NCBI RefSeq assembly: GCF_014697025.1
Contig: NZ_JACJRC010000003.1
Location: forward strand, 310,001 to 374,000
DNA from: Alkalinema sp. FACHB-956
Lineage (GTDB): Bacteria; Cyanobacteriota; Cyanobacteriia; Leptolyngbyales; Leptolyngbyaceae
Reading direction: 5' to 3'
DNA: 64,000 bases
Made by a program: the position numbers and the translations under genes. Shown piece after piece: positions 21,052-26,778 of the stretch. The notes beneath the pieces were generated by a model. That model made no database searches. It had not been told where the DNA came from and saw nothing but the letters and a program-made list of their open reading frames with translations. How positions within the stretch are numbered: the first letter of the stretch is position 1; each line of letters begins with the position of its first letter.

Positions 21052-22787
<1,736 letters not shown>

Positions 22788-23200
22788 TCAGCATCTACAA
22801 CGTAACAGATTTATCAGGTGAACCAATCGAGTCAAAGCGTCCATCCATCATCCTGGACAGATAATGGACAAACTATAACACCGATCTTGTAATCCGTAGA
22901 ATTACAACAAGTCTCAACTTATACTAGCAACTGTTTGGGGATCCCATCGCTGATTTTGATGGGGACTTTATACCGCTGCTATCAGGGTATCCACTTAGCA
23001 TACCCATTCATGTCCGGTTCATAACATTTTCTAGATTGATTGCTTAAAAACCGGGATCTGAACTGGGTAAAGTGAGTGCTCGATCGGTCTGGATGAAAGC
23101 GTAGTGCCCCCTGATTGGAAAGTACATCGCCCCTGATGGTTCTTGGCGGCCACTGGTTTGCCGCCTACGATTCGCCTACGAGTCACCTACTAATGTAGGT

Positions 23201-23284
23201 AACCCATTGTAGCCAACCCGTTATAACCAACCCGTTATAGCTAACCTGTAACAGCCAACCTGTAACAGCTAATCCGTTAATAAA
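23201..23284. repeat. 14-bp tandem repeat, six copies, between hetR and patX
   Basis: Six contiguous 14-base units of the type AACC(C/T)GTTATAGCC fill 23201-23284. They sit in the 906-bp region between the hetR start and the patX-like stop, about 420 bp upstream of hetR. Copies differ by one to four bases. The rest of this region (22785-23690) holds no gene I can support. It could contain the hetR promoter, a small RNA or protein-binding repeats. Confidence 0.9.
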
Positions 23285-23690
23285 CTACTTGATCAAACAA
23301 CTATATCCATTGCCTCCGGTCAAGCAACCTGAGATCAAAAAGCCAAGAAATTCAGGGCTGTTAATCATAAAACTTGTGCGAAATCGTCAAACTCGTTGCA
23401 TGACAGGATTGAGGGCAACGATCGCGATCGATAATAAGGAAAACTCTAATTCGCTGACGGATGTAATTGACCGACGGATGCAATTTGTTCAGTTGTTCTC
23501 AATGCAAAAACTTGTTGCAGCCTGAGCCTGAAAACCTGGGTGCCGAGAGATGTCTAGAACGCTTTTCTAGAACGCTATTCGGTTGCGGTTATTGTTGAGA
23601 AGTCACCTAGGTCAACGGGCAATCCTAATAAATAGGCGACAAAGTGGCGACAAAGTAATGAGGCAACTTTGTGATTAGGCGACAAGGTGA

Positions 23691-24056
23691 CTAGGCGACT
23701 TCCACTCGACCGCTTCCACGATGGGCGATTTCTACCCGACCACTGCCGCGATAACCGGGAGCTTCAATGCGTCCACTGCCACGATGGGCAATTTCTACCC
23801 GACCACTGCCCCGATAACTGGGAGGGTCAACACGACCACTACCCCGATGGGCGACTTCTACCCGACCGCTCCCACGATAACCGGGAGCTTCGATGCGTCC
23901 ACTGCCACGATAGGCGACGTTTTCTACCCGACCGCTTCCACGATAGGCAAGAATGTTGTTAGAATCTGAGATCTCTACAGCAGTCATTGTCCCGGTCAGC
24001 ACAGTTGCAGTGATTAGAAGGACACCGGTTAGTCCGAGCAAGAATTGAGAGCGCAT
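23691..24056 (-). CDS. patX: PatX-like HetR-inhibitor protein with eight RGSGR motifs
   Basis: A 121-aa protein. Residues 1-27 form a hydrophobic signal-like segment after a short basic start (MRSQFLLGLTGVLLITATVL). From residue 38 to the end there is nothing but RGSGR repeats, at 39-43, 50-54, 61-65, 71-75, 82-86, 92-96, 103-107 and 113-117. Each is preceded by Tyr or His and followed by VE, IE or VD. RGSGR is the pentapeptide with which PatS binds HetR. The known PatX family combines a hydrophobic N-terminus with an RG[ST]GR motif and lies near hetR; this gene fits in layout and position. The eightfold array is the odd feature. The ribosome-binding site is weak. Possible roles are a multi-peptide precursor or a multivalent ligand. 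Confidence 0.88.
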   Translation of the reverse strand: MRSQFLLGLTGVLLITATVLTGTMTAVEISDSNNILAYRGSGRVENVAYRGSGRIEAPGYRGSGRVEVAHRGSGRVDPPSYRGSGRVEIAHRGSGRIEAPGYRGSGRVEIAHRGSGRVEVA

Positions 24057-24107: not shown

Positions 24108-24209
24108 GACAGATCAGGAAAAGATTGTAGAAATGATGAATAATTTCTGCTTCGATCGTCCTTGAGATTTAGTTTATATTTTTATTTTTGCAGAGAAGTG
24201 TCTCTAAAG

Positions 24210-26003: not shown

Positions 26004-26040
26004 AGGTAATGCTATGTGCGATTTATGAATGCTCGACAGA

Positions 26041-26115
26041 TTAACTATGCTCGACTTAACTATGCTCGACTTAACTATGCTCGACTTAACTATGCTCGAC
26101 TTAGCTATGCTCGAC
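26041..26115. repeat. 15-bp tandem repeat, five copies, seeded on a stop codon
   Basis: TTAACTATGCTCGAC is repeated five times; the last unit (26101-26115, TTAGCTATGCTCGAC) contains the final codons and stop of the GIY-YIG gene. A partial sixth copy lies at 26029-26040. Because 15 is divisible by three, it creates a spurious in-frame extension (KSSIV repeats) upstream of the flavoprotein gene. Confidence 0.97.
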
Positions 26116-26778
26116 AAAGGGCGTTCCCCAAAAAGTCCAGTTTTCTTTGTTGAAGGGCGATCGCCATTTGTAGATTAACGTAGACTCCATCTTCTGGCGC
26201 GATCGGGTGTCCTGGGGGGCATCCTGCCAAAAGGCGATGCCTAATTGGGTGGGTAAATTATTGTTGTAATGGGATTGCTGATAGTGAAGTAAATAGCGTT
26301 TGCAATCATGTTCACCTTTCCAACGCTGGTTAGATTTCACGGTTTCACCAACGTACAACAGAATTGGCAACGTGTAGTCAAAGACAAAATATAATGCTGA
26401 AACCCCTGCATCCTCTGCTTTCCAACGCCAGAATTGGGTATTTTGTTGGGGCAGTTTGAAGGGATTCAGGCCATCGGGATCGATCGTTGGAACGGATTCT
26501 ACGGATTCTGTGGGTAAGCCGAAATCAAAGAGACTGCCTTGGGCGATCGCGGGTGCAATTTCGACGGATTGTTGATGATCCAGAATGCGCTGTTTCCAAG
26601 CCGTTAATGTGGCTGTATCCATTTCGAGGGACTGCGATCGCTGGGTTCCGTAGGTGCCTGCCAATTCCTTCGCGGAGAACAGGGAGGGTTGCTCGATCTG
26701 CGGTGTGGGAGGCTGGGAAAAAGCGGGATGCGGTGAAGCTGTATTGTTTGCATTTTGCGAAGTGCGGTACTTAGGCAT
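26101..26778 (-). CDS. GIY-YIG domain protein
   Basis: 225 aa. The C-terminal half resembles a GIY-YIG nuclease core: YFVFDYTLPILLYVGETVKSNQRWKGEHD gives the two short strands and following helix, and a later glutamate occurs in RQKMESTLIYKWRSPFNKENW. The motif is degenerate (VFD and YVG for GIY and YIG), which is seen in cyanobacterial members. The N-terminal 110 residues are poorly conserved and probably disordered. Nuclease activity is inferred, not certain. The stop codon lies in a 15-bp repeat unit. Confidence 0.7.
   Translation of the reverse strand: MPKYRTSQNANNTASPHPAFSQPPTPQIEQPSLFSAKELAGTYGTQRSQSLEMDTATLTAWKQRILDHQQSVEIAPAIAQGSLFDFGLPTESVESVPTIDPDGLNPFKLPQQNTQFWRWKAEDAGVSALYFVFDYTLPILLYVGETVKSNQRWKGEHDCKRYLLHYQQSHYNNNLPTQLGIAFWQDAPQDTRSRQKMESTLIYKWRSPFNKENWTFWGTPFVEHS

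Follow-up and report, generated by a model that had tools for sequence, protein, structure and literature searches.

The described systems closest to the locus reported here are PatX and PatS. PatS is a 17-aa peptide, and to our knowledge PatX is the sole RG(S/T)GR inhibitor that predates heterocysts. PatX (the asl2332 family) has a distribution coextensive with hetR, and its gene usually lies near hetR (Xu et al. 2025, PMC12756182). Nostoc PatX needs export from the cytosol and is then cut by PatP, and the free hexapeptide HRGTGR binds HetR with a Kd of 88 nM (PMC12756182). The hood of HetR binds XRGSGR and captures its free N-terminus. A longer N-terminal extension hinders binding, and the best ligand is a hexapeptide with a free N-terminus (PMC4649674). 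In Anabaena HetR, the side chain of Glu254 helps to capture the peptide N-terminus, and the E254A exchange lowers the affinity for PatS6 from 12 to 91 nM (PMC4649674). The DIF1 motif of Anabaena, TCCGGA, has been reported upstream of patX (PMC7761841).

The window, which is the whole stretch of 64,000 nucleotides of DNA from the filamentous cyanobacterium Alkalinema sp. FACHB-956 that was analysed, carries a patX gene 906 bp upstream of hetR, both on the minus strand. In window coordinates the locus contains:

21885..22784, minus strand: hetR, 299 aa, master regulator and presumed target (NCBIfam HetR equivalog, 556 bits)
22023..22025, minus strand: HetR codon 254, Ala (Glu254 in Anabaena)
22785..23690, no strand: patX-hetR intergenic region, 906 bp
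23691..24056, minus strand: patX, 121-aa PatX orthologue with eight RGSGR, ATG at 24056
23706..23720, minus strand: RGSGR motif 8, residues 113-117, preceded by His
23736..23750, minus strand: RGSGR motif 7, residues 103-107, preceded by Tyr
23769..23783, minus strand: RGSGR motif 6, residues 92-96, preceded by His
23799..23813, minus strand: RGSGR motif 5, residues 82-86, preceded by Tyr
23832..23846, minus strand: RGSGR motif 4, residues 71-75, preceded by His
23862..23876, minus strand: RGSGR motif 3, residues 61-65, preceded by Tyr
23895..23909, minus strand: RGSGR motif 2, residues 50-54, preceded by Tyr
23928..23942, minus strand: RGSGR motif 1, residues 39-43, preceded by Tyr
23716..23945, minus strand: tandem repeat of 63 bp (21 aa, two units), 3.6 copies, 82% match
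23988..24056, minus strand: hydrophobic N-terminus, residues 1-23, probable Sec signal peptide (sequence, orthologue conservation, AF2 helix)
24114..24119, minus strand: TCCTGA promoter element, DIF1-like, at -63 from the patX ATG (upstream alignment)

The original prediction of a 121-aa frame at these coordinates, on the strand of hetR and with RGSGR at residues 39, 50, 61, 71, 82, 92, 103 and 113, agrees exactly with our results. The product begins MRSQFLLGLTGVLLITATVLTGTMTAVEISDSNNILAYRGSGRVENVA. Its residues 2-22 are hydrophobic, as in the orthologues, and the AF2 model places a helix there with low confidence. The predicted hydrophobic N-terminus is therefore present; the added claim that only RGSGR units follow it is not correct, as residues about 24-38 form a linker without repeat between N-terminus and array. 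The motifs are regularly spaced by 10-11 residues, and the repeat unit is A-[YH]-RGSGR-[VI]-E. Such an array is not due to chance, since eight exact pentapeptides occur within 80 residues on a 63-bp DNA repeat, and orthologues in nearly every close relative carry the motif at the equivalent place. The genome of the window organism yielded no second PatX at E 0.001, and no match to a plasmid copy of patX was found.

In the patX-hetR region we found neither an RNA family match nor an intrinsic terminator; a 14-bp tandem repeat of 5.6 copies (AACCCGTTATAGCC) is located at 23201-23279. Near-perfect 15-bp repeats (TATGCTCGACTTAAC) at 26025-26117 lie ahead of the ATG of an ORF resembling FAD-dependent oxidoreductases, where a TTG start would give SSIVKSSIVK. 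The genome (G000) also contains nifH above the curated cut-off on contig 11, 92082-92894, so the organism probably fixes nitrogen.

Nearly all genomes of the window's family contain a small RGSGR ORF with hydrophobic N-terminus upstream of hetR and in the same orientation; within this family, no patX-like ORF was found near hetR in genus g19. Across the window's family, its class and the named genomes, a patX-like ORF precedes hetR at 125 distinct loci, the two being separated by about 116-1000 bp. TCCTGA is found at -56 to -68 from the ATG in 125 of 127 patX genes (shuffle mean 1.7), an excess that is somewhat inflated by the partial use of TCCTGA in choosing start codons and is too large for an artefact. 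A conserved GTA...TAGAA block follows 3' of TCCTGA in the aligned upstream DNA. The exact TCCGGA is absent before the window patX, and its element is equated with DIF1 on grounds of position and resemblance. Elhai and Khudyakov (2018) reportedly placed a DIF1-type element at most about 69 nt from the patX start codon. We assign the gene as patX because synteny with hetR, motif, hydrophobic N-terminus and the common promoter element coincide. At sequence level, each feature that we tested places the ORF in the PatX family, which bears out its earlier description as PatX-like.

HetR is present in 41 of the 42 genomes of the window's family, and 34 loci of this family carry a patX with one motif. 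The multi-motif exceptions are the window with eight motifs and three relatives with five (G004), three (G005) and two (G007). PatX of G006 contains one intact motif and one decayed copy, RGSDR, and G031 has a one-motif patX beside hetR. Of the 49 promoter-anchored loci in the distant family f13, 46 encode 2-9 motifs, mostly 3 or 4; the spacing is irregular and some members combine RGSGR and RGTGR. The maximum of nine is found there in G189 and G351, and the genus g103 has 4-9 motifs in units that are mostly D-RGSGR-I. Leptolyngbya BL0902 (G265) encodes a PatX with three RGSGR, 116 bp from hetR (L281). In the HetR tree, the window falls in a clade of seven (support 99) that lies, at 98-99 support, within a group of single-motif relatives. 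From this placement, we conclude that its expansion is separate from that in f13, and the tree indicates that an ancestor with one motif gave rise to the window array through duplication of that motif, in line with the predicted conversion of PatX into a multi-copy protein. The uniqueness of a many-copy PatX that the original prediction implied is not retained, given 2-9 copies in f13, five in G004 and three in BL0902; the proposed count of motifs across PatX homologues places eight as neither unique nor the maximum. Multi-motif PatX is common in family f13 and arose separately in the window clade. No description of it was found in the literature searched, the founding PatX paper lying outside that search.

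Two further kinds of array were seen. On contig 4 of G031 (L232, 4494-4799), away from hetR, a second PatX-like gene encodes three RGSGR and three RASGR and has TCCGGA at -83. Family f11 contains PatX-like genes (L287, L288, L289) with TCCTGA at -65 that encode arrays of RASGR and RGSER variants.

The codons of the window array show how its copies have been maintained. Motif codons have a pS of 0.66 and a pN of 0.00, with at least 10 synonymous and no non-synonymous changes (P about 2e-5 under neutral drift), while in the flanking codons residues do change (pN 0.30). Synonymous divergence that leaves the motif protein unchanged while the flanks vary shows that every motif copy matters, and the array is under selection with each copy retained. 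Neutral repeat slippage, with one motif doing the work and the extra copies as passengers, would fit an array that sits on a tandem 63-bp DNA repeat and a copy number that changes fast among near relatives (one plus a degenerate one, 2, 3, 5 and 8). It is an unlikely explanation, as slippage does not account for copies that remain identical in protein at such synonymous divergence next to changing flanks. The same synonymous-only pattern is found in the arrays of G004 (five copies), G005 (three) and G189 (nine), independent arrays among them, and the decayed RGSDR of G006 demonstrates that loss is possible, so that intact copies are not automatic.

We propose that the window PatX is an exported multi-peptide precursor, to which we assign a probability of roughly 0.6, with export, dose effect and HetR inhibition as presumed steps, and with cutting and binding inferred from published work on Nostoc PatX/PatP and HetR-PatS6. 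An ancestral unit A-[YH]-RGSGR-[VI]-E was tandemly duplicated to eight, with selection keeping each copy. Export would proceed through the hydrophobic N-terminus, and a periplasmic PatP-like peptidase would then split the protein into as many as eight XRGSGR hexapeptides (YRGSGR, HRGSGR). On reaching adjacent cells, these would detach HetR from DNA, and each translated chain would supply a larger peptide dose. With Tyr or His before each motif, the window units fit the XRGSGR form. Among 157 motifs of multi-copy PatX, the unit junction has mostly a small residue or Asp (A/S/D) at -2, mostly an aromatic or acidic residue at -1, and Ile, Val or Leu at +1 in nearly all. This common junction is consistent with a cutting signature and is no proof of one. 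The genome of the window organism has no match to PF00144, which we took as a guessed stand-in family for PatP (Alr1666), and this result is uninformative on PatP. The multi-copy precursor put forward originally is partly supported, being consistent with Nostoc PatX and PatP (PMC12756182) and with the HetR peptide structure (PMC4649674); the part that is not supported is the uniqueness implied for its copy number. A single motif serves most relatives well, which counts against the proposal. According to PMC11298460, the transcriptomes of patX and hetR deletions in BL0902 lack the opposite effects that a simple HetR inhibitor should produce, which leaves room for HetR-independent roles of PatX.

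The presumed target is full-length, aligns without offset to the solved HetR structures and is close in sequence to HetR of Alkalinema MAGs of the same family. It keeps five of six published peptide-contact residues (R223, E253, D256, D270 and D278). Residue 254 is Ala or Thr throughout the window clade, one-motif members included, so the loss of Glu254 appears to be earlier than the expansion. It is Ser in g103 of f13 (4-9 motifs), and one HetR copy of f11 likewise lacks Glu at this position; most other HetRs have Glu254. The residue was thus lost in three separate lineages with arrays of at least five units, the window clade (f1 g1/g4), f13 g103 and f11, where the f11 array reaches this number only if RASGR and RGSER variants are included. 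Exceptions are G363 with five motifs and Glu, G168 with one motif and Thr, and two cases of Gln with three motifs, and the phylogenetic test of residue 254 against copy number has four supported independent contrasts, too few for significance. That PatX copy number and the peptide pocket of HetR co-evolved is a hypothesis formed after seeing the data, and we regard it as rather doubtful. If true, extra peptide per precursor may compensate weaker binding, or alternatively HetR may have moved towards recognition of the motif within a longer chain.

Other changes at the pocket were also observed. HetR copies with Ala254 occur in the f11 array genomes or their near relatives (L302, L303, L305, L307, L308). 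In genus g53 of f13 (L264-L269), HetR carries D256N and D278N, both at peptide-contact residues, and PatX has 1-2 motifs.

The regular 10-11 residue spacing of the window PatX would suit an intact chain that serves as a multivalent ligand for several HetR dimers, by avidity or sequestration, instead of as a source of free peptide. Ala or Thr254 in the window clade and Ser254 in g103 could moreover reduce the need for a free peptide N-terminus. This too is improbable. In a two-hybrid test, HetR did not interact with uncut Nostoc PatX devoid of its signal (PMC12756182), an N-terminal extension hinders docking, and Arg223, which lies near the free C-terminus of the peptide (PMC4649674), is invariant. 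An exported chain and cytoplasmic HetR are in different compartments, and the spacing is irregular in f13.

A folded repeat protein of surface or adhesin type, a beta-solenoid resembling GIN/DUF2807, is far less probable as an alternative to a signal precursor. The window PatX matches Pfam DUF2807 with 28.3 bits (cut-off 24.2), and its AF2 model has repeating strands at low confidence (mean pLDDT 61). However, the match covers 59 of 181 profile positions, and both hetR synteny and the patX promoter element speak against such a protein. A DUF2807/GIN-domain adhesin was rejected on finding a DUF2807 match in none of seven homologues (0/7), single- and multi-motif alike. The chance that the frame is non-coding, with DNA-level repeats or with the opposite strand as the coding one, is negligible: antisense ORFs of 91 and 82 aa do overlap the array (23687-23969, plus strand), but purifying selection acts in the minus frame, TCCTGA precedes the minus-strand ATG, and orthologues match that frame in motif, N-terminus and position.

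In the exported-precursor reading, one protein may deliver many inhibitor peptides. Natural alleles with 1, 2, 3, 5, 8 and 9 units at one locus amount to a bacterial dose series, which could be used to ask whether precursor copy number sets inhibitor strength, with HetR as a simple structural read-out. The published patX deletion in BL0902 concerns a three-motif PatX, a state on which we found no remark in the sections of PMC11298460 consulted.

Compared with the multi-motif PatX of f13, including BL0902 and g103, the window protein has locus, promoter element, motif and unit junction in common, whereas the f13 proteins represent a separate expansion with irregular spacers. With Nostoc PatX it shares small size, hydrophobic N-terminus, RG(S/T)GR, proximity to hetR and the promoter element, but the Nostoc protein has 56 aa and is described with one HRGTGR hexapeptide in place of eight tandem RGSGR. 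PatS has the RGSGR pentapeptide that inhibits HetR in common; in contrast, it carries a single C-terminal motif, lacks a signal-like N-terminus and is restricted to heterocyst formers. Identity with PatS was ruled out by the length of 121 aa and a C-terminal end that is not RGSGR, and identity with HetN by the lack of a ketoacyl-reductase domain in the window protein. Precursors of the yeast prepro-alpha-factor type have no homology to the window PatX, dibasic processing sites are not shared, and enzyme and target are different; yet in both, tandem copies of a single active peptide come after a signal sequence.
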